Positions 1,321 through 26,668 are shown, counted from the stretch's first letter. The stretch is DNA of 64,000 nucleotides from Nitrospiraceae bacterium (GCA_019637075.1 JAHBWI010000010.1:1-64000), one strand, 5' to 3'. Numbers and translations: made by a program. The notes: a model not told the origin generated them from the letters alone.

Positions 1321-1478
1321 CGATGCCTGCGCTCGAGGGGCGAGGTGCATCCCATGGATCTGCGTGGATGCGGCGCGTCGCCGCTTGTCCGCCTGCTCCA
1401 AGGCTGAAGCACTTCTATTGGGCCCTGTGGGCCCTGGGTTCATTTCGTTCGAGTCAATCATCGCAAGGAGGCCGGTCC

Positions 1479-10527: not shown

Positions 10528-10567
10528 GCGGTTTACGGTTGCGGGGACTGTTCCCTGCGGCTCAAGG

Positions 10568-10599
10568 GGGCAGTGGTCTTTGAGGCCACTGCCCTTTTT
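10568..10599 (+). terminator. Rho-independent terminator
   Basis: GGGCAGTGG (10568-10576) pairs with CCACTGCCC (10586-10594) and is followed by TTTTT. The next 216 bases, up to 10815, contain no convincing gene; TTGCGT (10750-10755), 18 bases, TAAGAT (10774-10779) is a weak promoter candidate. Confidence 0.9.
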
Positions 10600-10815: not shown

Positions 10816-11808
10816 GTGGTGTCTCGAGACCTATCTCTGGCTGAAATCTTCCAGCTTGGTTATTACTGGGAGACGAAGATTCTCTTAACCGCCGTGAAGT
10901 TAGACGTTTTTTCTGCTCTGGATGGGCGTGGAAAAACCGTCGGGGAGCTTGCGGCGAAGATTGAGGCGAATACCCGTACGCTTGAGTTGCTGTTGAATGC
11001 GCTCGTGGCGATGCGTCTTCTTAATAAAGAAGGCGGTCTTTATACCAATACCCCTGCCGCCAGTACTCATTTGGTCAAGCAAGCTCCGCAGTATGTCGGG
11101 CATCTACTCATTCTCCACGATGCAGAATGGCAAAATTGGGGCCATCTTGAGGAAGCGATTCGCAGCGGACGTTCTCCGGTCACCCAGCACGTGTTTGAAA
11201 CGGATCCCCAGCTAGGGGCCAATGTGCTGTCCGTGCTGCATCGGATCGGACAACAGAGCGGTCCAGATCTCGCCAAACGGCTCGCTTTGGGTTCGGCCAA
11301 GTCCATGCTCGATCTCGGAGGCGGGGCCGGGACGAATGCGATCGCATTTTGCCGGGTGTATCCGCAACTCTCGGCCACGGTATTTGATTTGCCCACAACG
11401 TTGCCGGTCACGGAACATACCGTCAAAGAGGCCGGGCTCGAAGGGCGGATCAGCCTCATGGCCGGTGATTTCAATCGCGATGGATTGGGCGGTCCTTACG
11501 ACGTCGCACTGATGTCCGACATCCTGCACTATCAGGATTTCGATACGAACGCGGCCATCGTAACGAAGATCTTTCGGCACCTCAATCCGGGGGGGCGACT
11601 GATCATCAAGGATCGTTTCCTGGACCCAACCGGTACGAGCCCTGCGTGGACCACGGCGTTTGCCGTGCACATTCTTGTGAACACCGAACAGGGCGCTTGC
11701 TACCGTACCTCAGACGCCATGCAGTGGATGCGGGATGGGGGGTATGGCTCGATCGAGGAACTTGAGCGGACGGCAGTGGTACAAGGCTGGCGACCGTCTG
11801 AAGGGTGA
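10816..11808 (+). CDS. SAM-dependent O-methyltransferase (family 2)
   Basis: 330 residues from a GTG at 10816 behind AAAAGG. Residues about 15-100 form the winged-helix dimerisation region of plant-type and carotenoid O-methyltransferases (TKILLTAVKLDVFSAL). The SAM-binding fold follows, with motif I LDLGGGAGTNA near residue 160 and the downstream DILHYQDF and LNPGGRLIIKD motifs. The family methylates hydroxyls of small molecules such as hydroxyneurosporene, catechols or quinone precursors. It stands four bases before a DUF420 gene, at the head of the oxidase cluster, so modification of a quinone, heme or other cofactor is possible but unproven. Confidence 0.8.
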   Translation: MVSRDLSLAEIFQLGYYWETKILLTAVKLDVFSALDGRGKTVGELAAKIEANTRTLELLLNALVAMRLLNKEGGLYTNTPAASTHLVKQAPQYVGHLLILHDAEWQNWGHLEEAIRSGRSPVTQHVFETDPQLGANVLSVLHRIGQQSGPDLAKRLALGSAKSMLDLGGGAGTNAIAFCRVYPQLSATVFDLPTTLPVTEHTVKEAGLEGRISLMAGDFNRDGLGGPYDVALMSDILHYQDFDTNAAIVTKIFRHLNPGGRLIIKDRFLDPTGTSPAWTTAFAVHILVNTEQGACYRTSDAMQWMRDGGYGSIEELERTAVVQGWRPSEG

Positions 11809-11811
11809 TAC

Positions 11812-12528
11812 ATGTTCGAATTGATGCGACAACCCGGCTTCTTTGGCACCCATGCGACGCTAGGCGCCGACTTGAGCCAATTGATGGCCACGCTCTTCAC
11901 GGGCCTGTTCATTGTCGGATGGATCCAGGCCAAACAGAAGCGTGGACACGCTCACCATTGGCTGATGCTGGGTGGCATGATCGCGATGGTCGGGTTCTTT
12001 ACGACCTACTATCTGTTCCGCCAACTGGGCGTCCTGGCGGTGGAGGGAAAAGAAGGATTCGGCGGGTCCCAGTCCTTGTATGACTATGTCTTCATCCCAG
12101 TGCTGACATTGCACATCATTCTGGTCATCATCGGACTGGTCATGGCGGTCTATATGATCGTCCTGGGATTTCGATCGCAAGCTTTTTCCGGTGGAGTGCG
12201 GCTGCTGAGCGAGCAGGTGCTGCAGACATCCTGGAAAAAGGTCGGCGGGATCTTCGCCGCCTTGACCGCTGTTGTGCTGTTGCTGTTCGGTACACGTGTC
12301 ATGTCTGCCGGCTTTTCGATGCGGAAACTCGAGGTATATCTGGGATTCTTGATCTTGGTGGCAATCGTCCTGGCAGTGGAAATGTCCATCCAGCGTATTT
12401 GGCCGAACGGCGCCAAGCGCCATCGCGCACTCGGTCGGTTCACGATGATCATTTATTGCATTCTGTTTGCGACGGGAACCTTTACCTATGCCATGCTCTA
12501 CATCCTGTACCCCGGAAAGATTGGTTAG
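11812..12528 (+). CDS. DUF420 multi-spanning membrane protein
   Basis: 238 residues with about six membrane segments and histidines at or near their ends (HAHHW at about 45, LTLHIILVII, KRHRALGR). This is the DUF420 family, which includes the oxidase-maturation protein CtaM and is commonly found beside terminal oxidase genes. It starts four bases after the methyltransferase stop, so the two are probably co-translated. Inference from the neighbourhood: assembly or heme-insertion helper for the bd-like oxidases encoded at 14270 and 19693. Confidence 0.75.
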   Translation: MFELMRQPGFFGTHATLGADLSQLMATLFTGLFIVGWIQAKQKRGHAHHWLMLGGMIAMVGFFTTYYLFRQLGVLAVEGKEGFGGSQSLYDYVFIPVLTLHIILVIIGLVMAVYMIVLGFRSQAFSGGVRLLSEQVLQTSWKKVGGIFAALTAVVLLLFGTRVMSAGFSMRKLEVYLGFLILVAIVLAVEMSIQRIWPNGAKRHRALGRFTMIIYCILFATGTFTYAMLYILYPGKIG

Positions 12529-12617: not shown

Positions 12618-13115
12618 ATGTTGACTTGTGGTTGCGGCAATTGGATGCACACTGAGGGGGTTGAAGAACGCGTCACCGGTGATGCGTTCACTTGGTTCGT
12701 CCGATCCGAGTGTCGCCCCTGTGGCTGGGTCGTCGGGATCGATGTTCCGGCCGGGCAAGCCGCTCCTTGGGTGGATCGGCTCCTGTGGAGCGACGAGGCA
12801 AGGCACCGGCTCGACCGGTTGCCGCCCTACGTCGCGCCCTTGATGCGGGAAATGGTGGAACAGTATGCCCGGCAGCATCAGCATCGCGTCGTGACCTATG
12901 AGTTGATCGAGCAAGCGAAGACCGGAGACGTGGTGGTATGGGATCCCGAAGCCGAACAGCGGCTTGCGAATGTCCCGGCTCCGGTGCGGGCAATGGCCCG
13001 AATTGAATTGGAGCGGACTGCGGTCGATCGAGGTTCGAGTCGAGTGACCGTGGCCATGATGGAAGAAGTGAAGGCTCGTTATTTCGGAATGGCCGCGCGA
13101 AAAAACGATGGCTGA
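12618..13115 (+). CDS. Zinc-ribbon-like protein with PCP-reductase C-terminal domain
   Basis: 165 residues from ATG 12618 (a GTG at 12615 is also possible). A CGC...CRPC cysteine set lies in the first 40 residues and could bind a metal. Residues about 110-158 (WDPEAEQRLANVPAPVRAMA, then RIELERTAVDRG) match the PCP_red domain, a small helical module found at the C-terminus of light-independent protochlorophyllide reductase subunit B and in standalone proteins of non-phototrophs. In this context the domain points to tetrapyrrole binding or handling. No enzymatic motif of the reductase itself is present. The coupling to oxidase genes suggests heme maturation, as inference. Confidence 0.65.
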   Translation: MLTCGCGNWMHTEGVEERVTGDAFTWFVRSECRPCGWVVGIDVPAGQAAPWVDRLLWSDEARHRLDRLPPYVAPLMREMVEQYARQHQHRVVTYELIEQAKTGDVVVWDPEAEQRLANVPAPVRAMARIELERTAVDRGSSRVTVAMMEEVKARYFGMAARKNDG

Positions 13116-13190: not shown

Positions 13191-14258
13191 ATGCTGCATC
13201 GACTAGCCCTTCGAGTCTTGCCAAGCCTTTCCCTGGCTGTGACCGAGGACGCCATTCGCAAGAAGAAGCGGATCGTTATGTTCGTGCCAGGGTTAGTGGC
13301 TTTCGGGATCTATCGAGGCGCTAAGCATGGTTTTGATCTGGCCGACCCGCTGACGCTGCTCATTTTAAGTGGCTTGGTTTCCCTGCTCACGGCTGGCGGT
13401 TCCTACCTAATCGGTCGACGACTCCCGTTCACACGAGTGTTGACGGAGGATGGGGGGATGCGGGTGACCTGGCTGCTTGGCTGGATCGGGTTCGTATATG
13501 GAGTGCAGTTGTCGCTGTTGGTGCTCGCCTTGTTGTGGCTGGTCGGATACGACTATGGCAAACATCCTGATGGTCCGGCGATGATGGCCATCATTATCTC
13601 ATGCACCGCCGTTGCGCGAGATGCCTTTGAGATCGGGCACGTGCGTTGGGTGGAGGCGGCGGGGCGGCCGTTTGTGACCTTTCCCGATGGCAGAGCGTTA
13701 CGGGGGATGCTGCAGTCGGCGCCGCCTGTGCTTTGGGCTTGGGTCGGGGGGGGGGCCATCGCGGCGCTGGCGTCGTCGACGCTGGTTCCATCCTTGGCCA
13801 ATGCGCAAGTGTCGGTTCTCGTTCAGGCTGCGGTCGTCACTCTGGTTGCAGGGAGCGTCTCGCTGTTGGCGTTTTTTGCCGGGCAGGGGGACGGCAGTGG
13901 GTGGAAGGCTAAGGTGCTGGCGACATCCTGGATGGAGTTGTCGAAGTTTCTGTGGTGGCCGGGGCTCGCGTTTGCCTCGACGTACTATCTCGTGCTGGTC
14001 GGTCTGTTGCTCTATGTTGCGAAGCAGGCTTGGCCGTCCTCTGGCATGCTAGCAGCCGTCGCCGCCGGGGTCGGTGGTGTGATGGCTCTATATGCATACT
14101 ATTTGGGGCACCGCCGGGATGTCGAAAATCGTGAGCAGGGAGTGCTGCCCAGTTCGCTCCTCCGATGCCCCTTTGTGATGGGTATCCTGGGCCAGTCGCG
14201 GACCAATGTGACCGGCGAAGCAGTCGGACAGGTCTCCGTCTTAGGAAAGAGCAGCTAA
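13191..14258 (+). CDS. Unknown multi-spanning membrane protein
   Basis: 355 residues with about eight hydrophobic segments and a hydrophilic loop near residue 150 (ARDAFEIGHVRWVEAAGRP). I do not recognise a family. The start at 13191 has only a weak GGA upstream. A run of ten G bases at 13746-13755 encodes the GGG of residues about 186-188 in a membrane segment. One base gained or lost there would truncate the protein. It ends 11 bases before bd-like oxidase A and probably belongs to the same transcript. Confidence 0.65.
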   Translation: MLHRLALRVLPSLSLAVTEDAIRKKKRIVMFVPGLVAFGIYRGAKHGFDLADPLTLLILSGLVSLLTAGGSYLIGRRLPFTRVLTEDGGMRVTWLLGWIGFVYGVQLSLLVLALLWLVGYDYGKHPDGPAMMAIIISCTAVARDAFEIGHVRWVEAAGRPFVTFPDGRALRGMLQSAPPVLWAWVGGGAIAALASSTLVPSLANAQVSVLVQAAVVTLVAGSVSLLAFFAGQGDGSGWKAKVLATSWMELSKFLWWPGLAFASTYYLVLVGLLLYVAKQAWPSSGMLAAVAAGVGGVMALYAYYLGHRRDVENREQGVLPSSLLRCPFVMGILGQSRTNVTGEAVGQVSVLGKSS

Positions 14259-14269
14259 AGGATTCAACT

Positions 14270-16156
14270 ATGCATGAATCTCAAGGAAGCAGTCAGTGGT
14301 GTCGAGCGTCATGGAAGTTGTCCGCTCTCTGTGCGGGTATGCTTGCGATGCTTTGGTTCATGATGGCAGCTCCTCAGTCGGGGCTTGCCGGGGAGTCGCC
14401 TACTGATGTGTTCTTCCACACCCCCGGAGTTCCAAGCGGGCCGGCGGCGCCGACCGCGAATGAGATTCACTATCCTCAATACGGGTCGATGGATAGCCGC
14501 CTGTTGGTGTGGTTTGTCACGCAGCAGCATACGTATTTCGGGGGCTTCGTCTTGGCCTTGCCGATTTTTTCCGTGTTGCTTGAATTTTTGGGGTTGATGG
14601 CCAGGAATCCTGCCCTGTCGCTGCGCTACGACGGGTTGGCTCGGGACTTACTCAAGGTCGCGCTGCTTTCTCTCTCGGTGACCGCGGTGGTCGGCAGTCT
14701 GATGCTTGGGATGTTCATCACGCTCTATCCCAGTTTCATGCAGTACATGGGCTCGACTTTCAAAGTGATGATGCCGCTCTATGCCCTCGTGTTCGTGGGC
14801 ACGACGCTACTGACGATTGTCTACTACTACACGTGGAATCGGCTGTCGGCTCCCGGCTTGAAGTATGGCCATGCCACGATCGGATTGCTGTCGGTGGTGT
14901 TTGGAACCTCGCTGCTGCTGCTGGCCAACGCCTGGGCTGCCTTTATGATGTCTCCTGCCGGTGTCGACGCGGAGGGCCGATATCTGGGAAATCCTTGGCA
15001 CTTACTGCATTCGGCCTTGTGGAATCCGCTCAATGTTCATCGTTTCCTGGCTGATATCATGTCGGGCGGTGCGGTGGTCCTGGCCTATGCCTGTTACCGG
15101 TTTTTCACCGGAAAGAATCAGGAAGAGCGGGCCTATTACGATTGGGTCGGCTACATTTTCTTGTTTGTCACTGTCTGCGCATTGCTCCCCATGCCCTTTG
15201 CCGGCTACTGGCTCATGCGGTCGGTCTATGCTTTCCGCCAGAGCATGGGAGTCACGATGATGGGGGGGCTTTTGACCTGGCTGTTCGTGGTCCAGGCGTT
15301 GTTGATCGGGGCGTTGTTCTTGGGGGTGAACTACTATCTTTGGCAAAGCACGGGGCGCATCCGTGGTGGCGAACGCTACCAGTCCTATTACCAGTACCTG
15401 TTATTGGCCCTGCTTGGGTGCCTGTTCATTTGGCTGACGCCCCATACGTTGTTGATGAGCGACAGCGAAGTAAAGGCCATGGGCGGTGCGCAGCATCCAG
15501 TCATCGGCAATTATGGCGTCATGTCATCGAAGAACGGCGCAGTCAACGTCATGATCTGTATCACGACGTTGAGTTATATCCTGTACCGTCGCGCCAATCG
15601 AACCATGACTATTTCCTGGGTCAAGCGGGGCAATGTGGTGCTCGGTGTCCTCTTCGGCCTTGGCATCGTGCATATTGTGTGGTTGTCGATCTACGGTTTT
15701 TACTTGCCGGCTAGCATCAGGGTCGCTTTGTCTGGCCCGCAAGCGTTGACGACGCTAACGGTAGTGGTCTTGGGTCTGGTGCTGAACCGACAAATGCTGC
15801 GGGGAGCCACGATTCACGGTCCCGTCCAATGGGGCAACATTTCAGTACGGGGCATGGTGGGGCTGTTTGGTCTCGCGGCGGCATTTTCTTGGGTGATGGG
15901 CTTGATGGGTTATATCCGTTCGTCCGGAAGACTGGCATGGCATGTCAGCGAGTTGATGCCCGATACGTCCCCTTGGGCCTTTACGCCGACCATCGGCTTT
16001 GCGGCCAAGATGGTGACGATCAATATGGTGGTCTTTTGGGGTGTGGTGTTTTTCTTGTTTTGGGTCTGTCAGCGTGGCCAGCGACCGGTCATGCACGAAG
16101 CAGTCGATGCTGAGAAGGAGCCGGTGTTTCTGCCGACTCCTTCGCATGAGAGCTAG
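14270..16156 (+). CDS. bd-like oxidase subunit I, paralogue A (diverged)
   Basis: 628 residues from ATG 14270 behind AAAGG, with an N-terminal hydrophobic segment and about 14 more. His87 in VTQQHTYFGG aligns with the heme ligand His19 of CydA in the first conserved helix. Conserved pieces shared with paralogue B are MMSPAGVDAEGR, WHLLHSALWNPLNVHR, PFAGYWLMR, TPHT, GNYGVMSSKNG and GLMGYIRSS. The position of CydA Glu99, kept as Glu196 in paralogue B, is Thr178 here (FVGTTL), and GWD is TWN. The quinol-site GRQPW motif is absent. It may therefore not carry a normal oxygen-reducing heme pair; it could be a partner subunit or an electron-transfer membrane cytochrome. Confidence 0.75.
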   Translation: MHESQGSSQWCRASWKLSALCAGMLAMLWFMMAAPQSGLAGESPTDVFFHTPGVPSGPAAPTANEIHYPQYGSMDSRLLVWFVTQQHTYFGGFVLALPIFSVLLEFLGLMARNPALSLRYDGLARDLLKVALLSLSVTAVVGSLMLGMFITLYPSFMQYMGSTFKVMMPLYALVFVGTTLLTIVYYYTWNRLSAPGLKYGHATIGLLSVVFGTSLLLLANAWAAFMMSPAGVDAEGRYLGNPWHLLHSALWNPLNVHRFLADIMSGGAVVLAYACYRFFTGKNQEERAYYDWVGYIFLFVTVCALLPMPFAGYWLMRSVYAFRQSMGVTMMGGLLTWLFVVQALLIGALFLGVNYYLWQSTGRIRGGERYQSYYQYLLLALLGCLFIWLTPHTLLMSDSEVKAMGGAQHPVIGNYGVMSSKNGAVNVMICITTLSYILYRRANRTMTISWVKRGNVVLGVLFGLGIVHIVWLSIYGFYLPASIRVALSGPQALTTLTVVVLGLVLNRQMLRGATIHGPVQWGNISVRGMVGLFGLAAAFSWVMGLMGYIRSSGRLAWHVSELMPDTSPWAFTPTIGFAAKMVTINMVVFWGVVFFLFWVCQRGQRPVMHEAVDAEKEPVFLPTPSHES

Positions 16157-16186
16157 GATCAACGTCAAACGAGTGTGGTGTAGAGG

Positions 16187-16837
16187 ATGAAGTCGTTGTT
16201 AAAAACATGGGCCCTTGCGAGCGTGTTGGTAATCGCATTCGGTGGGGTGACATCGGCGTTGGCCGGTGACAATGGCGTGATTGTGCTCGAGGATTTTCAG
16301 CACAAAGACCAGGATGGGTTTCCTGTCGACTGGCAGCATGAGAATCAACGAAGCCAGGCCAAGGGACGCGATGCATACAAGATTCAAGTGGAGGGTGGCC
16401 AGGGATTCCTAGCCGCTCGTGATGCCGGGCAGCGGGTCAAGAAGCGAAAAATCGATTGGGATCCCAAGGCCTATCCAGTTCTGACCTGGCGGTGGCGGTT
16501 GCATAAGGCTCCCGGCGGGTCTGAGCCGGTCGCAGCGCTGTATGCGTCGCTCGACACCGATTTGATGTTCATTCCCGTGTTTACCAAGTACATCTGGAGT
16601 GGTACCAAGCCGGAAGGGACTATTGTGGAAGGCGGGATGTTCAGCGGATCGGAAATCGTGGTGCAGAGTGGGACGGCCGCTCTCAACGAATGGGTCGAGG
16701 AGCGGATCAATGTCTATGAAGATTTCAAGCGGCTACATCAGCATGAGCCGGCTGAGAAGGCCTGGGGTATTTCCATCTATGCCGGTCCAGGAGTCGAAAT
16801 CGATTTTGGGACGATAACTGTCAGCAGAGGGAAGTGA
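16187..16837 (+). CDS. Exported DUF3047-type protein
   Basis: 216 residues with a signal peptide (ALASVLVIAFGGVTSALA-GD). The beta-rich body contains LTWRWRLHKAPGG, WISGTK-like segments and VEIDFGTITVSRG near the end, which fits the DUF3047 family, a jelly-roll-like periplasmic group without known activity. It lies between bd-like oxidase A and a small membrane protein gene, with short gaps and the same strand, so co-transcription is likely. Role unknown. Confidence 0.65.
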   Translation: MKSLLKTWALASVLVIAFGGVTSALAGDNGVIVLEDFQHKDQDGFPVDWQHENQRSQAKGRDAYKIQVEGGQGFLAARDAGQRVKKRKIDWDPKAYPVLTWRWRLHKAPGGSEPVAALYASLDTDLMFIPVFTKYIWSGTKPEGTIVEGGMFSGSEIVVQSGTAALNEWVEERINVYEDFKRLHQHEPAEKAWGISIYAGPGVEIDFGTITVSRGK

Positions 16838-16874
16838 TCGGCACGATGTTCGAGCCGAGGTAGGTGTCCAGCCC

Positions 16875-17267
16875 ATGCCCCGAGTACCATCGAAAACCTT
16901 TATTGATATCCTTTTGGGCGTAGTCGTCATGGGGACGGTGGGGGCGCTCATCGGGACGATCATGGGTGGAGTTTCCATGCCGCTGGCGACTGGGATTGGA
17001 CTAGCCATGGGCGCAGTCGTCGGTTTTCTCGGTGGTCGGCGATTCTTGATCAGCATCCTGGTGGGTTCCCTTCTGGGCGGGGCTCTGGCCTGGATGATTG
17101 CAGGGTGGGAAAAGGTTTCGTTCGGAGCAGGCGCGGGGGCGGCGATGGGCGGGTTCCTGGGTGTGCAAATCTCGATGCTCTTGGACATGCGGGCGGCCCG
17201 AAAGGCGGCTACGCTTCAACCGCCGGTGGATAATTCCACGGAGACTCCAGCCGGCATCAATTCGTGA
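16875..17267 (+). CDS. Small glycine-rich membrane protein
   Basis: 130 residues. Three to four hydrophobic segments rich in Gly and Ala (GTVGALIGTIMGG, GLAMGAVVGFLGG, GAGAAMGGFLGV) suggest closely packed helices of a glycine-zipper type. The C-terminal 25 residues are polar. No family is recognised. It ends 15 bases before the SUMF1-like gene at 17283. Confidence 0.6.
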   Translation: MPRVPSKTFIDILLGVVVMGTVGALIGTIMGGVSMPLATGIGLAMGAVVGFLGGRRFLISILVGSLLGGALAWMIAGWEKVSFGAGAGAAMGGFLGVQISMLLDMRAARKAATLQPPVDNSTETPAGINS

Positions 17268-17282
17268 AGGGCGTGTAGCGAA

Positions 17283-18197
17283 ATGGAAAACAGAGCTGTG
17301 TTGATCGGGTCCATCATTTTCGTGTTCGGATCCTTTATCGCGACGATTGTCGGGCTTGTGTACGAGTCCTATAAGGCCAAGCAGATGCGAGAATTGGCCA
17401 TGTCGATTAAGACGGAAACAAAGGCGACCGTGGTGGCTGAGAAGCAGGACTTTTCCATGTACAAAACCCTCATCGGTGATGACGGTCGGGAGATGGTGCA
17501 GATTGCTGAGGGTCCGTTCGTGATGGGGAGCCGCGACAATGACAGCGATCCGGACGAGAAGCCTGAGCACCAGGTCTACCTCAAGGCATATTTCATCGAT
17601 AAGAAGGAGGTTTCTCAGGACGAATTTGATCGTTTCGCCAAGATGACGAAGCGGGCCAAACGAAAGATCGAAGTATTTGAGGACGACCCGGCCAAGCTCC
17701 TCAAGCCGGAGAACCCGGCGATCGCCGTGACGTGGGACGACGCCGAAGCGTACTGCCGGTGGGCAGGAAAGCGGTTGCCGACGGAGGCAGAGTGGGAAAA
17801 GGCCGCTCGGGGCGAAAGCAAGCGGCGATATCCATGGGGGGATGAGTTTGTTGTCGGCTATGCGAACATCGATGGAACCGAGGATGGGTTTCAGTATCTG
17901 GCGCCCCCAGGAACGTTTGAGCCAGGCCGAAGTCCATTTGGAGTTTATGACATGACCGGGAACGTGGCTGAGTGGGTTGCCGATTTCTACGAAGAGAATT
18001 ACTACCAAAAAGCGACTTATAGGGATCCGAAGGGGCCCGATCAAGGTGAGCAACGCGTTATTCGCGGTGGCTCATGGCGTGAAACCAAGCGTAATGCAAG
18101 GCCTTCAAAGCGATTTCAGGCGAAGCCCTGGCGGCACGACATTACGATTGGATTTCGATGTGCAAAGGATGTCGAACTGGAGTCGCTGGCCAAGTAA
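17283..18197 (+). CDS. Membrane-anchored SUMF1-like protein 1
   Basis: 304 residues. One N-terminal membrane segment (AVLIGSIIFVFGSFIATIVGL) leaves the rest outside the cytoplasm. Residues about 70-300 are the formylglycine-generating-enzyme (SUMF1) fold: GPFVMGSRD, VTWDDAEAYCRWAGKRLPTE, AEWEKAARG, YDMTGNVAEWVAD, RVIRGGSW and GFRCA. The two copper-binding cysteines that true FGE carries just after RGGS are missing (RGGSWRETKRNARP), so sulfatase activation is unlikely. Such proteins accompany copper nitrite reductases (NirV) and other metalloenzymes. Inference: assembly or structural role in the oxidase cluster. Confidence 0.75.
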   Translation: MENRAVLIGSIIFVFGSFIATIVGLVYESYKAKQMRELAMSIKTETKATVVAEKQDFSMYKTLIGDDGREMVQIAEGPFVMGSRDNDSDPDEKPEHQVYLKAYFIDKKEVSQDEFDRFAKMTKRAKRKIEVFEDDPAKLLKPENPAIAVTWDDAEAYCRWAGKRLPTEAEWEKAARGESKRRYPWGDEFVVGYANIDGTEDGFQYLAPPGTFEPGRSPFGVYDMTGNVAEWVADFYEENYYQKATYRDPKGPDQGEQRVIRGGSWRETKRNARPSKRFQAKPWRHDITIGFRCAKDVELESLAK

Positions 18198-18208
18198 TTG
18201 GTCGTGTC

Positions 18209-19162
18209 ATGCTGGAAAGTAAGTTCAAGATCGCGCTCCTCCTTGTTGTGCTGGCGGCTGCCAGCCTTCCTGTCATGGGCATTATCAGGGGCACTATTCT
18301 TCCCCCATTCGAGCAAGATACCGCTCATCAAGGCGCTGGTTCTGCGGAGCAGTCTTCCCAGTTCGCCTCGGATGAGGCTCCGGTCGGGGAAGAAATGGTG
18401 TTGGTTCCGGCCGGCACGTTCATAAGGGGAACGGATCAGGGCGGTTTCGATGAGCAGCCTAAGCGGGAGATTTTCCTCGATTCGTTCATGATTGATCGGA
18501 ACGAGGTGACCAACGCGCAGTATGCCGCTTTTGTGGCTGCCACTGGCCATCGTAAGTCAGGCCCCCCGTCACGCTATGCGAAAAATATGGGCAAAATGCG
18601 AGGGGTGAATCAGCCGGTGGTATATGTCTCCTGGGAAGACGCCGAGGCCTATTGTCAATGGGCTGGGCGCCGATTGCCTACTGAAGCAGAGTGGGAAAAG
18701 GCCATGCGAGGAACGGATGGGCGGCTCTGGCCTTGGGGCAACGTGGAGCTTCCAGGTGGAGCGAATTGGGCGCGAATCGATGATGGTTTTGAGGCTTCGG
18801 CACCTGTCGGACAGTTTAAGAGCGATGCGAGTCCCTACGGAGTGATGGACGGGGCGGGAAATGTGCTTGAGTGGGTGGAGGATTGGTATCAGGAGAGCGC
18901 CTATGCGGAGGCTGAACCTAGAAACCCCCATAGCCCTGAACATGGGACATTTCGGGTGTTGAGGGGAGCTGGTTATACCAGCGCGGGGTCCGACCTCCGT
19001 ATTACCAGCCGGAGCAAAATGATGGCCGATTTCCGGGATGAAACAATCGGCTTCCGCTGCGCACGATCAGTGGATCAAAATGAGGATTCCGGTGGGTCGG
19101 TGCGGCCTGGGAAAATCACAGGAAATCAAAGTAGTAGAGGATTAGGAACACGGCCAAAATGA
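18209..19162 (+). CDS. Membrane-anchored SUMF1-like protein 2
   Basis: 317 residues from ATG 18209, 11 bases after the first copy. It repeats the same design: an N-terminal anchor (IALLLVVLAAASLPVMGII), a linker of about 40 residues, then EMVLVPAGTFIRGTD, VSWEDAEAYCQWAGRRLPTE, GVMDGAGNVLEWVEDW and GFRCARS. RVLRGAGYTSAGSD again lacks the FGE cysteines. The pair are tandem paralogues. The last 47 bases of the gene overlap, on the other strand, a possible 34-residue gene. Confidence 0.75.
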   Translation: MLESKFKIALLLVVLAAASLPVMGIIRGTILPPFEQDTAHQGAGSAEQSSQFASDEAPVGEEMVLVPAGTFIRGTDQGGFDEQPKREIFLDSFMIDRNEVTNAQYAAFVAATGHRKSGPPSRYAKNMGKMRGVNQPVVYVSWEDAEAYCQWAGRRLPTEAEWEKAMRGTDGRLWPWGNVELPGGANWARIDDGFEASAPVGQFKSDASPYGVMDGAGNVLEWVEDWYQESAYAEAEPRNPHSPEHGTFRVLRGAGYTSAGSDLRITSRSKMMADFRDETIGFRCARSVDQNEDSGGSVRPGKITGNQSSRGLGTRPK

Positions 19163-19220
19163 TATTGACAACCATTCCAGCCAAAACTATAATGTCGAAC
19201 ACTTTTGAGTTTTTTGCCAT
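19116..19220 (-). CDS. Possible 34-residue single-span membrane protein
   Basis: On the minus strand an ATG at 19220-19218 opens MAKNSKVFDIIVLAGMVVNI and continues with ILAVFLILYYFDFL before TGA. It has AGGA eight bases before the start, a short charged N-terminus and one hydrophobic helix. The form resembles small oxidase subunits such as CydX or CcoQ. It overlaps the 3' end of the second SUMF1-like gene and points away from the next two small genes. The coding evidence is the ribosome site and the clean helix only. Confidence 0.45.
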   Translation of the reverse strand: MAKNSKVFDIIVLAGMVVNIILAVFLILYYFDFL

Positions 19221-19322
19221 AAAAATTCCTATTTTTGCGCGCTCGCGTGAGAAATTTTGTCTAACACAGAGCAGAGAGTGTGTCAATTAGATTTACGTAA
19301 CTAAACCGTTAGGAGAGTCACG

Positions 19323-19451
19323 ATGGGAACGGAAGCTGCTCAGGCTCAGGACGACGTCAAGCTTAAGATCGGCAAGATGATTTTCTATCTCACCTGCGCG
19401 ATCAGTCTTTGGTTTTTCTACTGGTTCGGTGGGATTCAGTGCCCGTGCTGA
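19323..19451 (+). CDS. 42-residue single-span membrane protein, possible oxidase small subunit
   Basis: AGGAGA stands nine bases before the ATG at 19323. The product begins MGTEAAQAQDDVKLKIGKMI, then has one membrane helix (FYLTCAISLWFFYWF) and ends GGIQCPC. The end with two cysteines spaced CPC is a possible metal or disulfide site. It is the first of two tiny genes placed directly before bd-like oxidase B, the arrangement expected for oxidase accessory subunits (known CydX and CydH proteins are of this size). Sequence similarity to either is not evident by eye. Confidence 0.6.
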   Translation: MGTEAAQAQDDVKLKIGKMIFYLTCAISLWFFYWFGGIQCPC

Positions 19452-19502
19452 GTCCTCACCCTTCTTTTCACGCTCAGTTGATTAAGTTGAGGGGGGTTTG
19501 AG

Positions 19503-19625
19503 ATGGGCCAAACAATTGTGTATGTGCTGGTGTCCGTCGCGATCTGCGTCGCCTACTTCACCGCTGTCGATCACTTCCTGATGGACGCGCAGGGGTTGGA
19601 CTTCTGGTATCTCTTCCGGAAGTAG
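19503..19625 (+). CDS. 40-residue single-span membrane protein, possible oxidase small subunit
   Basis: The ATG at 19503 follows GAGGGGGGTTTGAG. The product has one helix (TIVYVLVSVAICVAYFTAV) followed by an amphipathic tail, DHFLMDAQGLDFWYLFRK. It ends 67 bases before bd-like oxidase B. The His-bearing tail after the helix and its place make it a candidate small subunit of that oxidase. It is too short for family assignment. Confidence 0.6.
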   Translation: MGQTIVYVLVSVAICVAYFTAVDHFLMDAQGLDFWYLFRK

Positions 19626-19692
19626 TTTTCCGGGAGGCGGAGAGATTTTGAGGATTGTTTTTCATATTCGTGATGTATCAAGGAGGTAACCC

Positions 19693-21627
19693 ATGGGTCC
19701 GGTAACCCGCAAGAAGTTGATGTCGATTATGGCGCTCAGCGCGATGATCGGCCTCCTCCTTCTGCCTGTCCTGGTTTCGATACCTGCGCTCGCCAGTGGT
19801 GGCGGAGGAGCTGCCCCAGCCGCTCCCGCTGATTCCGCCAAGAAGGACGGTGGTGAGGCGAAGGTTGAGAAGGGTAAGGATGTGTACTACAAGACGGAGG
19901 GTATTGTCTCAGGCCCTCCGGCCCCAAAGACGACCGACGGGGAGAAGGACTATCCTCGGTACAATTTTGAGAGCCGCGTCCTCCTCTGGTTTGCTAACCA
20001 GCAGCACCTCTATTATGGAAGCTTTGTGCTCGCGGTTCCGATCTTTTGCATGATCATTGAGTTCATGGGGGTGGTAACTAAGGATAAAGCCCTCGCCAAG
20101 CGATATGATCAATTGGCTTATGACTTTATCAAGATCAGTCTGACGGCCTACTCTCTGACGGCAATCTTGGGTGGTATTCTGATCTTCACCTTCCTGACTC
20201 TCTATCCCGCATTCTTCCAGTACCTCTCGAACATTTTCCGGCCGGTCATGCATATTTATGCGCTGACCTTCGTCGCAGAGAGCGGTACCCTCTACATTTA
20301 TTATTACGGATGGGACAAGATGAAGGAGGGATTCCTTAAGTGGATCCACCTCAGCATGTCTGTCATCCTGAACGTCATCGGCACCCTCCTGATGTTCCTG
20401 GCGAACTCGTGGATCGGCTTCATGATGTCGCCGGCCGGTGTTGATGAGCAGGGCCGATTCCTGGGGAATATCTGGCACGTCATCCACACCGCCTTGTGGA
20501 ACCCGTTGAACCTGCACCGTATTCTTGGCAACATGGCCTTCGGCGGCGGCGTCGTGGCGGCCTACGCCGCCTATCGGTTCTTGTCTGCGAAGACCGACGA
20601 AGAGCGGGCGCACTATGACTGGATGGGCTACATCGCGATGGCCCTCGGTGTGTCGTTCTTAATTCCTCTTCCTTTTGCCGGGTACTGGTTGATGCGTGAA
20701 GTCTATGCCTATCGTCAGCAGATGGGCATCACGCTGATGGGCGGTCTGCTTGCGTGGTTGTTCATCATTCAGGCAACCATGATCGGCATTCTCTTCCTCA
20801 GCACCAATTATTACCTGTGGCAAGCGTTGGGTCGGATGCGCGGCGCTGAAAAATATCAGCGCTATATCAAGTATCTGGTGTTTCTGCTGTGCTGTGGGTA
20901 CTTGGTGTTTATCACCCCGCACACGATGGTCATGACCCCGGCCGAACTGAAGGCAATGGGTGGTCAGCAGCATCCTGTGTTGGGTAACTACGGTGTCATG
21001 TCGGCCAAAAACGGTGGCATTAACGTCATCATCACCACAACGGTGTTGAGCTTCGTCTGGTACATGCGAGGCAACAAAGTCTCGACTGTGTCGTGGGCGA
21101 AATTCGGTAACATCTTCATGGGCTGTTTCTTCTTCTTTGCATATATCAATATTATCTGGCTGGCGATTTACGGATACTACATTCCTGCAAACGTACGTGT
21201 AGGGTTATCCGTGCCCCAGGTGGCTACGACGCTCTCGTGTCTCTTCTTCATGTTCGCCTTGAACAGCGTCATGATGAAGGGCGCCAAGCAGACGGGCGCA
21301 ATCGAGTGGGGTAAAATCTCTGCGCGATCACAATATGCGCTGATTATGCTTGCGACGGCGTTTACCTGGATGATGGGCTTGATGGGCTACATCCGCTCTT
21401 CGGTCCGGTTGTTCTGGCACGTGAACGAAATCATGCGTGACAATTCTCCGTGGGCCTATACGCACACGGTCGGATTCGCTGCGAACATGATTTCCGCCAA
21501 CGTGTTGTTCTTCTGGATCAGTATCATGTTCGTATTCTGGCTTGGTACGCTAGGAGCGAAAAAAGCCCCCGTTGAGGCCAAAGCTGGAGCCCCTGGGAGA
21601 GCCCCAGAACCGGCTGTCGGTCACTAA
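19693..21627 (+). CDS. bd-like oxidase subunit I, paralogue B
   Basis: 644 residues with AAGGAGG before the ATG at 19693. After an N-terminal hydrophobic segment and an Ala/Pro-rich linker there are about 14 membrane helices. His105 (ANQQHLYYGS) matches CydA His19. Glu196 in FVAESGTLYIYYYGWDKM matches the CydA FESTF...FFFGWD region with Glu99. The WHVIH, NLHR, TPHT, QQHP and WHVNE histidines are shared with paralogue A. The GRQPW quinol motif is missing and no CydB gene is nearby. bd-like proteins of this kind are the proposed terminal oxidase of Nitrospira. Three cytochrome c genes follow directly, so cytochrome c is a plausible electron donor. Confidence 0.82.
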   Translation: MGPVTRKKLMSIMALSAMIGLLLLPVLVSIPALASGGGGAAPAAPADSAKKDGGEAKVEKGKDVYYKTEGIVSGPPAPKTTDGEKDYPRYNFESRVLLWFANQQHLYYGSFVLAVPIFCMIIEFMGVVTKDKALAKRYDQLAYDFIKISLTAYSLTAILGGILIFTFLTLYPAFFQYLSNIFRPVMHIYALTFVAESGTLYIYYYGWDKMKEGFLKWIHLSMSVILNVIGTLLMFLANSWIGFMMSPAGVDEQGRFLGNIWHVIHTALWNPLNLHRILGNMAFGGGVVAAYAAYRFLSAKTDEERAHYDWMGYIAMALGVSFLIPLPFAGYWLMREVYAYRQQMGITLMGGLLAWLFIIQATMIGILFLSTNYYLWQALGRMRGAEKYQRYIKYLVFLLCCGYLVFITPHTMVMTPAELKAMGGQQHPVLGNYGVMSAKNGGINVIITTTVLSFVWYMRGNKVSTVSWAKFGNIFMGCFFFFAYINIIWLAIYGYYIPANVRVGLSVPQVATTLSCLFFMFALNSVMMKGAKQTGAIEWGKISARSQYALIMLATAFTWMMGLMGYIRSSVRLFWHVNEIMRDNSPWAYTHTVGFAANMISANVLFFWISIMFVFWLGTLGAKKAPVEAKAGAPGRAPEPAVGH

Positions 21628-21653
21628 CCCAGAGAAACGCAAACAAATCGTGT

Positions 21654-21692
21654 GGGAAGGCCATTAAGGTATGTGCTCGAGATGGCCTTCCC
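21654..21692 (+). promoter_or_regulatory. Intercistronic hairpin between oxidase B and the cytochrome genes
   Basis: GGGAAGGCCAT (21654-21664) pairs perfectly with ATGGCCTTCCC (21682-21692) around a 17-base loop. No T-run follows, so it is more likely an RNA-processing or partial-termination site that sets different levels of oxidase and cytochrome than a full terminator. Confidence 0.55.
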
Positions 21693-21712
21693 CTCCGCAG
21701 GAGGTTTGAGCT

Positions 21713-23029
21713 GTGATTGAATTGATTAAAGAGGCCCTATCAATGGGGTGGCCTGCATTAGGGGTTCTTATCGCCCTAATGTTCTATTTCAAGGCTTCCA
21801 TCCAGGATCCCGCCGCCAGCAAGCGGGCGGTTTTCAAGACCTTCATCGGCATTCTCGGGGCGTTTCTCTTGTTCATGGCCATCGCCAACTACAAGATGAA
21901 CTTCTTCGGTGAGTCCCGGCTCTTGCCGGTCTCTCTGGTCTTGATCACTTCCATGACTTTTATGATGGCGGTGTATTTCACCAACATCAGTGCGCTGCTC
22001 CGTATCGGTGGATTCATGTTCTTTATCGCCGCTGCTCTGTCCGGGTATGGAAACTGGCTTCCGCAGGTGGAGGGTGGTTTTCCACCGAAGGAAGAGAAAA
22101 AAGATTTCAGCAACATGCCGCAGTCTGAATTGGCCGACGAAGGTGAGAAAATTATTTTCGGCGGTGTTGGGCAAAACAAGGTTCAGGGTGCAATCGGTAA
22201 GGGCCAGTGCCCACTTTGCCATGCATTCCATAAGGGTATGTTGGGCGAGCGTGCTCCAAATCTCGACGGGATTCCTGAGCGTGCAGATAAGGAAAGACTT
22301 GAAGATCCCCGCTATCACCGGGGCAAACCGGCGGATCGTGACTCTTCAATGAAAGAGGCATTCGCTGGCTCTGGTACTGCTGAGAACGGAATTGAGTATA
22401 TTGCTGAATCCCATGCCTGCCCCAGCTGCTTCGTCGTGGCGGGGTATGGCGTGAAGGGTACGAATGACAAAGAGAGCCCGATGCCGGCTATTCACAAGCC
22501 GCCAATTTCTCTTTCCCTCCCGGAGCTTGCCGCTGTCGATACGTGGCTGTACGTCCGTGAAGGTAAGGAAGCGCCGGGCTTTGACGAAATCATCAAGGCC
22601 TATGAAAAATTCGTTCCGGAATCAGATCGGCCGAAGCCGGCTGATGCGGGAGCTGCACCTGCAGGGGCAACCGCGTTAATGGCCGACGGAACCGAGCCGG
22701 TGGATCAGATTTTCGCCAAGGCTCAGTGCGTGGCCTGCCACACGATCCCTGGCATTGCTGGAGCCACTGGAACCATCGGTCCGAAACTGGTCGAGGGAAC
22801 GACTGCTCCTCAGCGGATCAAGGACAAGGATTATAAAGGCAAGGCTAAGAGTGGACCTGAATACATCATGGAGTCGATCGTGGAACCTAGCGCGTTCGTC
22901 GTGAAGGGTTTCCCGGACAACACTATGCCGAAGGTGTTCGGTCAGAAGCTCAGCGCCGGTGCCTTGAAGAAGATTGTCGAGTACCTGTCTCAGGTACAGG
23001 AGGGGAAAGAGCCACCCAAGGCTTCGTAG
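21713..23029 (+). CDS. Membrane-anchored diheme cytochrome c with a third, broken heme motif
   Basis: 438 residues from a GTG at 21713 behind AGGAGGT. Three to four membrane helices fill residues 1-115. The periplasmic part has CPLCH (166-170) and CVACH (339-343). Between them CPSCF (236-240) keeps both cysteines but has Phe where the heme-ligating His should be, in a region equivalent to a cytochrome domain. An Ala/Pro-rich linker separates the halves. It follows bd-like oxidase B and probably hands electrons to it. Confidence 0.8.
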   Translation: MIELIKEALSMGWPALGVLIALMFYFKASIQDPAASKRAVFKTFIGILGAFLLFMAIANYKMNFFGESRLLPVSLVLITSMTFMMAVYFTNISALLRIGGFMFFIAAALSGYGNWLPQVEGGFPPKEEKKDFSNMPQSELADEGEKIIFGGVGQNKVQGAIGKGQCPLCHAFHKGMLGERAPNLDGIPERADKERLEDPRYHRGKPADRDSSMKEAFAGSGTAENGIEYIAESHACPSCFVVAGYGVKGTNDKESPMPAIHKPPISLSLPELAAVDTWLYVREGKEAPGFDEIIKAYEKFVPESDRPKPADAGAAPAGATALMADGTEPVDQIFAKAQCVACHTIPGIAGATGTIGPKLVEGTTAPQRIKDKDYKGKAKSGPEYIMESIVEPSAFVVKGFPDNTMPKVFGQKLSAGALKKIVEYLSQVQEGKEPPKAS

Positions 23030-23086
23030 TCTAAGACGTAAACCCTGGGAGCTGGTTTCCACTTCGGATTAAAGGGAGATGATGAA

Positions 23087-24124
23087 ATGAAAGCATTAAT
23101 GTCAGTCGGCGCCCTGATCGGTGTCGTCGGACTGCTCATGTTGATCGGCATGATCTTCGGAGTGGTCCCATCGAACACGGTCAGGTTGGTTGAGGGCTAC
23201 ATGCCCATGCAGATGTTGAGCGAGCTGGCGATTTTCGTCGCCGGTTTCACTGGTATCAGCTATCTGCTCAACTCGATGGGGATGCCCCTTCCTCGATTTT
23301 GGCAAGGCATCCTCTTTTGGGTTTTTGTACAGATGTATTTGAAGTTTCGGGTGTATCCCCCTATCCCATTCAGCGTGCGAGCGATGTATGGGACTGTGAT
23401 CATGGTGGCCGTATTCATGTGGGTGTCGGCAAACGAAGAAGATTGGAAGAAGTTCAAGCAGCCAATCTATAACGTTCTGGATGCCAATACCGGCTTCCAC
23501 AAGGCATTGCGCACCATGTACCTCGTTCTCTTGCCGATTTTGATCGGCGGCTTCTCTTTTCTTTCCATGAAGCCGAGCATCGATGAGCCGATCGAATTGC
23601 GTACGGTGCACCCGGCCCCTCCGGCGAGCACCAAGGTGCACGGGAAGACCTACACCCTGCAGACTTCGCAGAACCCCTATCGTGTCAACCCAGAGGGGAA
23701 GTACGATCAGGAATACAGCAACAAGATGATCGTCGAGCAGTCAATGGGACGCCTGATGGCCCCGAATGCCAACCCTTGGGACGAAAAGGCTGAAGGGTAT
23801 CTGAAGTATGTGCGTGAAGGCGGTGAGATTTTCTTCCAGAACTGCCACTTCTGCCACGGTGACAATTTGAATGGACGCGGTCTCCATGCGTTCGCCTTCA
23901 ATCCGATTCCGGCGAACTTTACCGACCCAGGGACGATCGCTCAGCTCCAGGAAACCTTCATCTTCTGGCGTGTGGCCAAGGGGGGCATCGGCCTTCCCAA
24001 TGAAGGCTTCCCCTGGGCCTCCGTGATGCCGCCATGGGAACAGCACCTGACCACGGATGAAATCTGGAAGGTCATTCTGTTCGAGTACTGGCACACGGGC
24101 TACTATCCACGTACTTGGGACTAA
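23087..24124 (+). CDS. Membrane-anchored monoheme cytochrome c
   Basis: 345 residues. Residues 1-170 contain about five membrane helices (for example VGALIGVVGLLMLIGMIFGV). A cytochrome c domain follows, with CHFCH at 253-257 and later WASVMPPWEQHLT, where the Met is a likely axial ligand. The membrane region has no recognisable quinone site. It is the second of three consecutive cytochrome genes after oxidase B, separated by only 57 bases from the first. Likely a subunit of the same complex. Confidence 0.8.
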   Translation: MKALMSVGALIGVVGLLMLIGMIFGVVPSNTVRLVEGYMPMQMLSELAIFVAGFTGISYLLNSMGMPLPRFWQGILFWVFVQMYLKFRVYPPIPFSVRAMYGTVIMVAVFMWVSANEEDWKKFKQPIYNVLDANTGFHKALRTMYLVLLPILIGGFSFLSMKPSIDEPIELRTVHPAPPASTKVHGKTYTLQTSQNPYRVNPEGKYDQEYSNKMIVEQSMGRLMAPNANPWDEKAEGYLKYVREGGEIFFQNCHFCHGDNLNGRGLHAFAFNPIPANFTDPGTIAQLQETFIFWRVAKGGIGLPNEGFPWASVMPPWEQHLTTDEIWKVILFEYWHTGYYPRTWD

Positions 24125-24171
24125 TCGCGAATCTTACAAACAACCTGGGAGAACAGGTGGTGAGGTTAACA

Positions 24172-25956
24172 ATGAGGAATCTGAGGAAGAAAGTGAAGCC
24201 GGCGTTGATCGTCGGTGCCGCCGTGGGGGCTTTGCTCTTCACGGCAAGCATGGGGATGGTCGCTCACGCTGCCGATGTCCCTGAAGGCTTCAAATCTGGA
24301 GAATTGGCACCGGCACCTCCTGCTGACATGATTGAAGCAGGTAAGCGTGTCTATTTCACGAAGTGTGTCTGGTGTCATGGCGTGGATGGAGCCGGTGATG
24401 GCCCTGGTGCCGACCGCCTGTGGCCCCGTCCGCGCAACTTCAATCAGGGTACGTTCAAGATTCGCCACACGGCGAGTGGTGAGTTGCCCTTGTTCAACTA
24501 CAATGAGAAGGCTGTCGACTCTGGCAAGAACGACTTGCTGGATACGGTGACTCACGGTTTGCCTGGCTCGGCTATGCCGCCGTGGGAAGGTATCTTGACT
24601 GAGGAACAGCGTATCCAAGTCTTGGCCTATGTGACGACTCAGCTGGTCAAGGATCGGAAGTTTACGGACAAGGCTTCTGAAACTCAGACGGTGCTGCAGC
24701 TCAGCACGTTGAAGCCTTCTGAGCCAACTGAAGAAAGCGTGAAGCGCGGTGGCGAACTGATCGTTGAGAAGAAATGTATTGAGTGCCACGGCCTTGAGGG
24801 GCGCGGCGATGGCAACGCCTTCAACCTGAAGGACGACTGGGGCTTTTCCATCCAACCGGCGAACTGGCACAAGTGCTGGAACTTCCGGGGAAGCAGGCAG
24901 GATCCTTACAACGTTCGGAACATTTTCCGAACGTTCTCGACCGGTCTGAACGGTACGCCAATGCCGTCCTTCGCCGACAGTACTTCGGTGGAGGAGCGCT
25001 GGAACATTGCGAATTTTGTAAATTCGTTGTGCGAGCGCGACGGTGAAGGCAAGCCCCTCGGTATCGATCCTCTGACGGATAAGCCGAAGATCAACTTCGT
25101 AGTGCCGTCCTCTCCGGTCGAAGGGGATATTTCCGACGATCCTGAGAGTGAAATGTGGAAGAAGCAGGGGCGCCGTTACGTTGCGATGGGCGGTCAGATC
25201 ACCCACAAGCCGCGTAACTTCGTCAATCGTATCGACGACGTCTGGGTTAAGTCTCTCTACAACGAGAAGCAAGTGGTGTATCTGATTCAGTGGGACGATC
25301 GGACCAAGAGCGTGGCAGAGGGCAAGTTGCCCTGGGCTCCGACTCAAGTCAACGTCGAAAACTTTGGTGTGAAGGAACAGGCACCGAAGACTGGCGAAGA
25401 AGGTTCCATTGCCGCTGCTCAGAACAATTACACCACGTACAACGACGCGATTGCGTTCCAATTCCCGATCAAGTGGCAGGAAATTCCCGCTCCGTTCAAG
25501 CCGCGGTACCTCTGGGGCGATGCGAAGTTCAATGCCGACATCATCAAGTGGGAAGCTGACGGGTCCCTGCGTTCCTTCAAGGGAACGGGATGGGATCAGG
25601 ACTTTGAAGAGCGCGATGACTTCGAAGAGAAGATCAAGCTCATGAAGTCTGAGTGGAAGAACGGCCGTTGGACAGTCATGATCTCCCGTCCGCTTACTGG
25701 TAGTAAGGACGATTATGACGAGTACACCCGGTTTGATGTCGGGAAGTACATTCCGATGGTCTTCTTTGCTTGGGATGGTCACAATGGTGATGCCGGACGT
25801 AAGATGGCCGTGTCGGCCTTCTACTACACGATTCTGGAACCGCCGATCCCTCGTGAGGTCTATATCTATCCGGCGATCATCGCCGTCGGTGTGGTCATTC
25901 TCGAGGGTTGGGTGCTGACTCGTCGCGCCAACAGGAAGAAGGGCAAGAGCCTGTAG
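24172..25956 (+). CDS. Diheme cytochrome c fused to an NxrC-like (EB_dh) domain and a C-terminal anchor
   Basis: 594 residues. ATG 24172 is preferred because GAGG lies six bases upstream and a signal peptide follows (VGAAVGALLFTASMGMVAHA-AD); earlier in-frame starts overlap the previous gene. CVWCH is at 65-69 and CIECH at 202-206, each with a downstream Met in a PMP/AMPPW context. Residues about 310-550 resemble the heme b-binding ethylbenzene dehydrogenase gamma domain also found in NxrC (VYLIQWDDRTKS, GKYIPMVFFAWDGHNGD). One helix near the C-terminus (IYPAIIAVGVVILEGWVL) anchors it. The fusion could connect an NXR-type gamma subunit to a cytochrome chain. Confidence 0.8.
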   Translation: MRNLRKKVKPALIVGAAVGALLFTASMGMVAHAADVPEGFKSGELAPAPPADMIEAGKRVYFTKCVWCHGVDGAGDGPGADRLWPRPRNFNQGTFKIRHTASGELPLFNYNEKAVDSGKNDLLDTVTHGLPGSAMPPWEGILTEEQRIQVLAYVTTQLVKDRKFTDKASETQTVLQLSTLKPSEPTEESVKRGGELIVEKKCIECHGLEGRGDGNAFNLKDDWGFSIQPANWHKCWNFRGSRQDPYNVRNIFRTFSTGLNGTPMPSFADSTSVEERWNIANFVNSLCERDGEGKPLGIDPLTDKPKINFVVPSSPVEGDISDDPESEMWKKQGRRYVAMGGQITHKPRNFVNRIDDVWVKSLYNEKQVVYLIQWDDRTKSVAEGKLPWAPTQVNVENFGVKEQAPKTGEEGSIAAAQNNYTTYNDAIAFQFPIKWQEIPAPFKPRYLWGDAKFNADIIKWEADGSLRSFKGTGWDQDFEERDDFEEKIKLMKSEWKNGRWTVMISRPLTGSKDDYDEYTRFDVGKYIPMVFFAWDGHNGDAGRKMAVSAFYYTILEPPIPREVYIYPAIIAVGVVILEGWVLTRRANRKKGKSL

Positions 25957-25983
25957 TCTTCTTGTCGGCATGAGGTAAGTATA

Positions 25984-26020
25984 CGAGGGGGTGAGGAAAC
26001 TCACCCCCTCGTTGTTTTTG
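25984..26020 (+). terminator. Rho-independent terminator closing the oxidase-cytochrome cluster
   Basis: A perfect 12-bp stem, CGAGGGGGTGAG (25984-25995) with CTCACCCCCTCG (26000-26011), a GAAA tetraloop and TTGTTTTTG after it. It marks the end of the cluster. Confidence 0.95.
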
Positions 26021-26044: not shown

Positions 26045-26668
26045 GTGACACAGCTGCCCATGATTTCAGACGTTGCTGGTGTTCTGATCGCTGGGGGAAA
26101 GAGCCGACGTATGGGGCGTGACAAACGCTTTCTGGCAGTGTCTGGCCGATCCTTGTTTGATCGCACGTTGGATGTCTTGGAGTCGGTGTTCAAAGAGATC
26201 ATCGTGGTGCTGGCCGAGCCAGTTCCCGAATTGGATGTCAGGGGATTTCAGGTGGTTTATGATGCAATCCCGAATTGCGGGAGCCTCGGCGGGTTATATA
26301 CGGGATTGCGATCCACCCCATTGCCGCGCGTTTTCGCAGTGGCGTGTGACATGCCGTTTCTCAATCCCAGCCTCGTCAGGTACTTCTCCAAGTTCGACTC
26401 GTCCGCGGACATTGTCGTCGCTGAGCTGGCGACCGGTGTCCATCCCATGCATGCGGTGTATTCGCAGAAGTGTCGACCACTACTTGAGGCTATGGCGCAG
26501 CGGGGGGATCTGAAGATTCAACGGTTGTTCCTCGAACCCGACTTACTAGTCCGGGTCGTGCGTGAGGCGGAACTGGCACCGCTGGACCCTGGCTTGCGCT
26601 CATTTCAGAACATCAATACACCGCAAGATTTGGCATTGGCCGAGTCTCTCCTCCCGCCGGTTTCATAA
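26045..26668 (+). CDS. mobA: Molybdenum cofactor guanylyltransferase MobA
   Basis: 207 residues from a GTG at 26045 with GAGGAAG upstream (ATG 26060 is the alternative). MobA joins GMP to molybdopterin to form the MGD cofactor needed by NXR. The nucleotide-binding motif LIAGGKSRRMGRDK lies at about residues 13-26. YDAIPNCGSLGGLYTGL and ACDMPFLNP follow as in the family. It overlaps the next gene by one base. Demand from the nitrite oxidoreductase explains its presence. Confidence 0.9.
   Translation: MTQLPMISDVAGVLIAGGKSRRMGRDKRFLAVSGRSLFDRTLDVLESVFKEIIVVLAEPVPELDVRGFQVVYDAIPNCGSLGGLYTGLRSTPLPRVFAVACDMPFLNPSLVRYFSKFDSSADIVVAELATGVHPMHAVYSQKCRPLLEAMAQRGDLKIQRLFLEPDLLVRVVREAELAPLDPGLRSFQNINTPQDLALAESLLPPVS

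Follow-up and report, generated by a model that had tools for sequence, protein, structure and literature searches.

Among described systems, the closest to the gene cluster studied here is that of bd-like_3 and bd-like_4 with alt_NxrC_2 (Mundinger et al. 2019, PMC6606698; PMC3578206, PMC8026999). It combines a bd-like oxidase, which has 14 helices, no quinol ligands, and two His replaced by Gln and Phe, with two membrane cytochromes c, an alternative NxrC (the gamma subunit of nitrite oxidoreductase, NXR) carrying one or more membrane spans and two heme motifs, and another bd-like gene at a distance of a few genes. TO_1 of Ca. Manganitrophaceae joins a periplasmic subunit of cytochrome b type to bd-like proteins; it is widespread in Nitrospirota and occurs in organisms that lack nitrification genes (PMC9040806). 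The OR-N type CydAA' (Murali et al. 2021, as related in PMC10839748, PMC12342949 and PMC12324825) belongs to the bd superfamily, has no quinol site, and is thought to receive its electrons from cytochrome c. Finally, NIDE0901-like proteins, proposed as complex IV, belong to the same superfamily and are flanked by cytochromes c (Luecker et al. 2010, as related in PMC8026999 and PMC10579370). In this study, we analyzed a window of 64,000 nucleotides from a Nitrospiraceae bacterium (GCA_019637075.1, JAHBWI010000010.1:1-64000), in which a first-pass annotation had read positions 14270-25956 as one cluster encoding a bd-like terminal oxidase linked to cytochrome c. All the features listed above for the bd-like_3 cluster are found there; TO_1 is likened to it by description alone. 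The cluster and the idea of its donor are already published, as is a cytochrome c-oxidase mechanism (also in PMC10579370). To judge from the literature examined, new here are the division of the cluster into a core independent of NXR and a block linked to it, a set of small proteins and a nested promoter.

The source genome is of Nitrospira type (4.06 Mb, completeness rated at 100%); among named organisms, the nearest homologs of its cydA2 gene are found in Nitrospira metagenome-assembled genomes, Ca. N. defluvii and N. moscoviensis. Judged by its distribution, the cluster is composed of two modules, because the core is kept in genomes without NXR and the block around the other bd-like gene, cydA1, is found only in NXR-carrying Nitrospirales. 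The reading that we find likeliest, and on balance probable, is that the core encodes a membrane complex of the bd superfamily and of the OR-N kind, fed by cytochrome c and reducing oxygen. Its transcription unit (19165-26012; window coordinates, plus strand unless stated) would provide sm42, sm40, CydA2, CytC_1, CytC_2 and altNxrC to one complex. Periplasmic donors would deliver electrons to the cytochrome b and c domains of altNxrC and to the two membrane-bound cytochromes c; these electrons would pass on to hemes held by CydA2 and reduce oxygen there, without any quinol site. CydA1 and the block upstream of it would have been added later, through gene duplication, with CydA1 probably serving nitrite respiration as a CydAA'-like partner. 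The analysis establishes gene content, fold, distribution, and the conservation of promoter and N-terminal ligands; the donor, the reduction of oxygen, the make-up of the complex and the pairing are predictions.

CydA2 (644 amino acids, 19693-21627) and CydA1 (629 amino acids, 14267-16156) have 14 helices each, and match PF01654 only over the first ~240 of its 418 positions. The structure predicted for CydA2 (pLDDT 81) nevertheless aligned over its whole length with solved chains of bd subunit I (Z 34.4, 351 residues), and so did that of CydA1 (pLDDT 76, Z 29.7 over 338 residues). A likeness of 130-residue stretches to heme-copper oxidases (Z about 6) was discarded, as unrelated helical proteins score alike. 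In CydA2, His105 aligns with canonical CydA His19, the heme ligand of the first helix, His275 with His186, the b558 His, and Glu196 with E107 of E. coli CydA. Among 35 bd-like proteins, His105, Tyr189, His219, His275, Met349, Met561, Met564 and His576 are invariant. The absence of a quinol motif, reported by the first-pass annotation, was borne out: neither GRQPW nor a Q-loop was found in the CydA-like proteins of the window, and in CydA2 helix 302-323 runs directly into helix 326-340, followed by further helices. The window proteins thus present the CydA fold, the N-terminal homology, the lack of a Q-loop and the heme-ligand His of transmembrane helices 1 and 5 that characterize the OR-N type; we liken them to this type in general, rather than to its subclades OR-N1 or OR-N2.

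Downstream of cydA2 lie the genes for CytC_1 (21713-23029, two hemes, four N-terminal spans), CytC_2 (23087-24124, one heme, four spans) and altNxrC (24166-25956, with an alternative start at 24172), identified by Pfam matches, heme motifs and spans. Three membrane-anchored cytochromes c with five heme c motifs had been announced, and exactly five CXXCH motifs are present (CPLCH and CVACH in CytC_1, CHFCH in CytC_2, CVWCH and CIECH in altNxrC), all kept in relatives, with spans in all three proteins. A CPSCF sequence of CytC_1 was considered as a broken heme motif and rejected, because all class-level homologs have CPxC[F/Y] here, at a place that PSAFV occupies in the second domain. The identity of the third cytochrome had to be corrected: with its two cytochrome c domains (PF00034), its EB_dh domain of the ethylbenzene-dehydrogenase, heme-b type (PF09459) and its N- and C-terminal spans, it is by domain content an alternative NXR gamma subunit. 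The core is closed by an intrinsic terminator, as had been noted, although its stem, at 25983-26012, measures 13 bp rather than 12; a stem-loop and T tract are also found behind altNxrC in 37 of 42 related loci.

The genome encodes four bd-like CydA proteins and no more. No match to COX1 (PF00115) was found in it, nor any match to CydB (PF02322), so that these four proteins would be its only recognised oxygen reductases. The two others are located on contig C3, together with a Rieske protein, cytochrome b and several cytochromes c, a layout matching the CIII_1, bd-like_1 and bd-like_2 genes of the proposed complex IV (Mundinger et al., PMC6606698). The NIDE0901-like copy of this contig is 44% identical to CydA2, branches in a separate clade, and has His at the positions of CydA2 residues 426 and 574 (motifs HHP and HWH, against QHP and FWH or AWH in the window proteins). 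PMC8026999 assigns the Gln/Phe variant to a cluster conserved across Nitrospinae, Nitrospirae and anammox bacteria. We therefore equate the window cluster, by gene content and residues, with the bd-like_3/bd-like_4 and alt_NxrC_2 type, and not with the complex IV type. An assignment of the window pair to NIDE0901 and its partner was ruled out by the position of the N. defluvii copy (877.6 kb), by the C3 cluster and by the His positions. Two phylum-level relatives of CydA2 have His at both positions occupied by Gln and Phe in the window protein; the His pair therefore looks ancestral, and lost stepwise. Copies of NxrA are found on contigs C3 and C11.

We examined how far the two modules travel together. 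The whole gene order, from a carboxypeptidase-regulatory-like gene to genes past altNxrC, is kept in 20 Nitrospiraceae loci (contig ends aside), in the order's second family, and in family f39. In family f40 and in class-level genomes, the core alone is found, i.e. one or two SUMF1-like genes, small open reading frames, CydA2, CytC_1, CytC_2 and altNxrC. The order from CydA2 to altNxrC extends to phylum-level relatives, at 31-52% identity, and the cytochromes c are invariably associated with CydA2 across the class. NxrA is present in the tested members of families f1, f2 and f39; it was found in none of 11 class-level genomes, in none of 8 phylum-level genomes and not in the single f40 genome tested. 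The core, altNxrC included, is in these genomes apparently independent of NXR, in line with the occurrence of TO_1 in Mn-oxidising relatives lacking nitrification genes (PMC9040806). CydA1 orthologs (54-83% identity) occur only in f1, f2 and f39, i.e. in the NXR-bearing Nitrospirales, and elsewhere the CydA1 query retrieves CydA2 or more distant copies; CydA1 was not found in G274, a fragmented f39 genome. In a quick tree, all CydA1 sequences group together (support 100), and their clade branches from within class-level CydA2. As this amounts to one evolutionary event, the link between CydA1 and NXR is suggestive, and not a statistical proof. Within the family, CydA2 proteins are 86-95% identical and CydA1 proteins about 69-83%, so that CydA1 appears to evolve faster. 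In G169, a class-level draft genome, a single bd-like protein and no COX1 were found; f40 drafts have one CydA2-type protein, no COX1 (4 of 4 tested) and no CydB (2 of 2 tested). The window-type core is thus the sole recognised oxygen reductase found in these drafts, as judged for G169 from the COX1 search only, CydB having not been searched.

The region between the modules holds a compact arrangement of small genes and promoter-like sites (hydropathy and sigma-70 consensus were assessed by simple scans). P_ox, at 19165-19193, is a 12/12 match to the consensus TTGACA-N17-TATAAT. This perfect sequence occurs 97 times in loci totalling 2.1 Mb, and 96 of the 112 loci that extend far enough upstream carry it no more than 1.5 kb ahead of CydA2; its conservation suggests that it acts as a promoter. 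Given this consensus promoter, the gene set first described is probably made of two transcription units. P_ox lies inside min34, a 34-codon gene of the opposite strand (19116-19217, minus strand), which encodes a single-span microprotein (MAKNSKVFDIIVLAGMVVNIILAVFLILYYFDFL). Together with sm42 (19323-19451, 42 amino acids, C-terminal end ...FFYWFGGIQCPC) and sm40 (19503-19625, 40 amino acids, ...DHFLMDAQGLDFWYLFRK), min34 is kept in all 74 of the closest loci whose upstream DNA reaches far enough. The first-pass annotation had mentioned small single-span proteins; this holds for sm40, whose span was scored, and in sm42 no helix passed the hydropathy cut-off.

The membrane span of the min34 peptide hardly varies. 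Because third positions and stop codons (TGA, TAA, TAG) vary while the peptide stays, min34 is a genuine protein gene, and for the same reason we rejected the possibility that its reading frame is a by-product of promoter conservation. The codons bearing the -10 (ATT ATA) and -35 (T|GTC|AA) boxes are unchanged in 76 of 76 sequences, and ATA accounts for only 3 of 192 Ile codons in the genes of the cluster. In a set of 65 distinct min34 genes, picked by a peptide pattern that fits Nitrospirales, P_ox is always present. Upstream of min34 and facing P_ox, a TTGACA box is likewise found in all 65 (3 of 65 after shuffling), mostly 59-69 nt from the ATG; in the window it belongs to P_min (TTGACA-N17-TAGACA, 19258-19286, minus strand). 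Class-level min34 homologs are still antisense upstream of CydA2, at other distances and mostly without a perfect promoter. As P_ox and P_min face each other, their transcripts should overlap. A tentative proposal, which we hold rather unlikely as a whole, is that P_ox, inside an antisense gene whose own promoter faces it from about 90 bp away, forms a two-faced switch with mutually exclusive transcripts, that min34 is a small subunit or a regulator of the oxidase, and that CydA1 joined an older core, independent of NXR, as a partner subunit specific to NXR. In the available parts of PMC6606698, PMC3578206 and PMC8026999, we found no reference to min34, sm42 or sm40, to the nested promoter, or to a CydA1 block distributed apart from the core; min34 is apparently undescribed. 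An extra CydA2 copy (75-82% identical), without cytochrome genes, min34 or promoter, was observed in four loci (L057, L058, L059 and L076).

How do these observations fit other explanations? A canonical quinol bd oxidase would share superfamily and fold with the window proteins, but is refuted on its defining features, since Q-loop, GRQPW and a CydB in the genome are all missing, and it keeps hardly any probability. A role in docking NXR is a more serious, though unlikely, explanation: altNxrC would anchor NXR, the bd-like proteins would transfer electrons to quinone and so serve reverse electron transport, and oxygen would be reduced by the C3 complex. Such an anchoring and reverse transport role has been proposed (PMC3578206, PMC6606698), and is favoured by the restriction of CydA1 to NXR-bearing genomes, by the content of the C3 cluster (Rieske, cytochrome b, two bd-like proteins, cytochromes c), and by the HHP and HWH motifs of the C3 protein. 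However, the window proteins lack the quinol motif, and the core, altNxrC included, is kept in class-level and f40 genomes without detectable NxrA; docking can therefore not be its only role. A variant of the oxidase reading, quite possible although short of even, has CydA2 and the cytochromes c forming the oxidase, and CydA1 acting apart, with another partner, in assembly or in sensing. The differing distributions of the modules, the conserved promoter between them and the faster evolution of CydA1 point in this direction, and together they weaken the earlier idea that one cluster makes one complex. On the other side, CydA1 and CydA2 are invariably adjacent in NXR-bearing loci, and canonical bd oxidases as well as the published CydAA' models are heterodimers.

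For the cytochrome c-fed oxidase itself, the preference for cytochrome c over quinol as donor, already put forward in the first-pass annotation, fits the lack of Q-loop, CydB and heme-copper oxidase and the constant association with cytochromes c. Besides the anchoring role proposed in the literature and the differing distributions, which bear against a single complex, several points weigh against this reading. The complex IV favoured in the literature is another cluster of the same genome, on contig C3, and the literature examined holds no biochemistry on the window complex. The next fold match after bd subunit I is to NrfD-type subunits of alternative complex III (Z 23), and the fold therefore does not exclude quinone chemistry. 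Among the ligands, Tyr189 of CydA2 replaces the canonical glutamate E99 of the third transmembrane helix, in all bd-like proteins compared; the profile alignment stops at helix 6 and leaves the counterparts of E. coli CydA Met393 and Glu445 unplaced; and CydA2 has Gln426 and Phe574, and CydA1 Gln and Ala, where the NIDE0901-like C3 protein has His and His.

The upstream module probably begins, as transcription unit 1, with an O-methyltransferase-like gene (10816-11808; Pfam Methyltransf_2, synteny), the first after a terminator-like site found by terminator scan at 10564-10598. It is followed by genes for a DUF420 membrane protein (11812-12528, PF04238, E=7e-18, synteny kept), a PCP_red domain protein (12618-13115, PF08369, E=3.6e-27) and a membrane protein without Pfam family (13191-14258), kept next to CydA1 in relatives. 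After CydA1 come a DUF3047 protein (16187-16837, PF11249), a small membrane protein with three spans (16875-17267; span scan, synteny) and two SUMF1-like proteins, each with one N-terminal span (17283-18197, PF03781, E=8.9e-62; 18209-19162, E=3.6e-57). The Pfam matches agree with the DUF420, PCP_red and SUMF1-like genes first described upstream. Formylglycine-generating enzymes have a catalytic cysteine pair. Each of the SUMF1-like proteins contains only two cysteines, one of them within a C-terminal GFRCA, and therefore probably lacks such a pair. On the other side of the core, a MobA-like gene, recognised by motif only (26057-26668), follows altNxrC in NXR-bearing loci and in f40. Elsewhere in the window, we noted a very large multicopper-oxidase-type protein (1674 amino acids, 1323-6347), and further genes of nitrite-oxidation type: two EB_dh (NxrC-like) proteins, a NarJ/TorD-like chaperone, TatA and a ferredoxin-type protein with a Tat-like start (jointly 42663-43616, 49388-50230, 41585-42562, 47730-48008 and 40758-41363).

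How Nitrospira reduces oxygen is a long-standing question, the heme-copper oxidase being absent here as in most of the order. Our analysis separates an NXR-independent core from an NXR-linked addition, and names small proteins as candidates to look for in purified complexes. In G169 and in family f40, the window-type complex may be the sole oxygen reductase. The nested promoter and its microprotein offer a concrete regulatory hypothesis for what may be the terminal oxidase of a key nitrifier.

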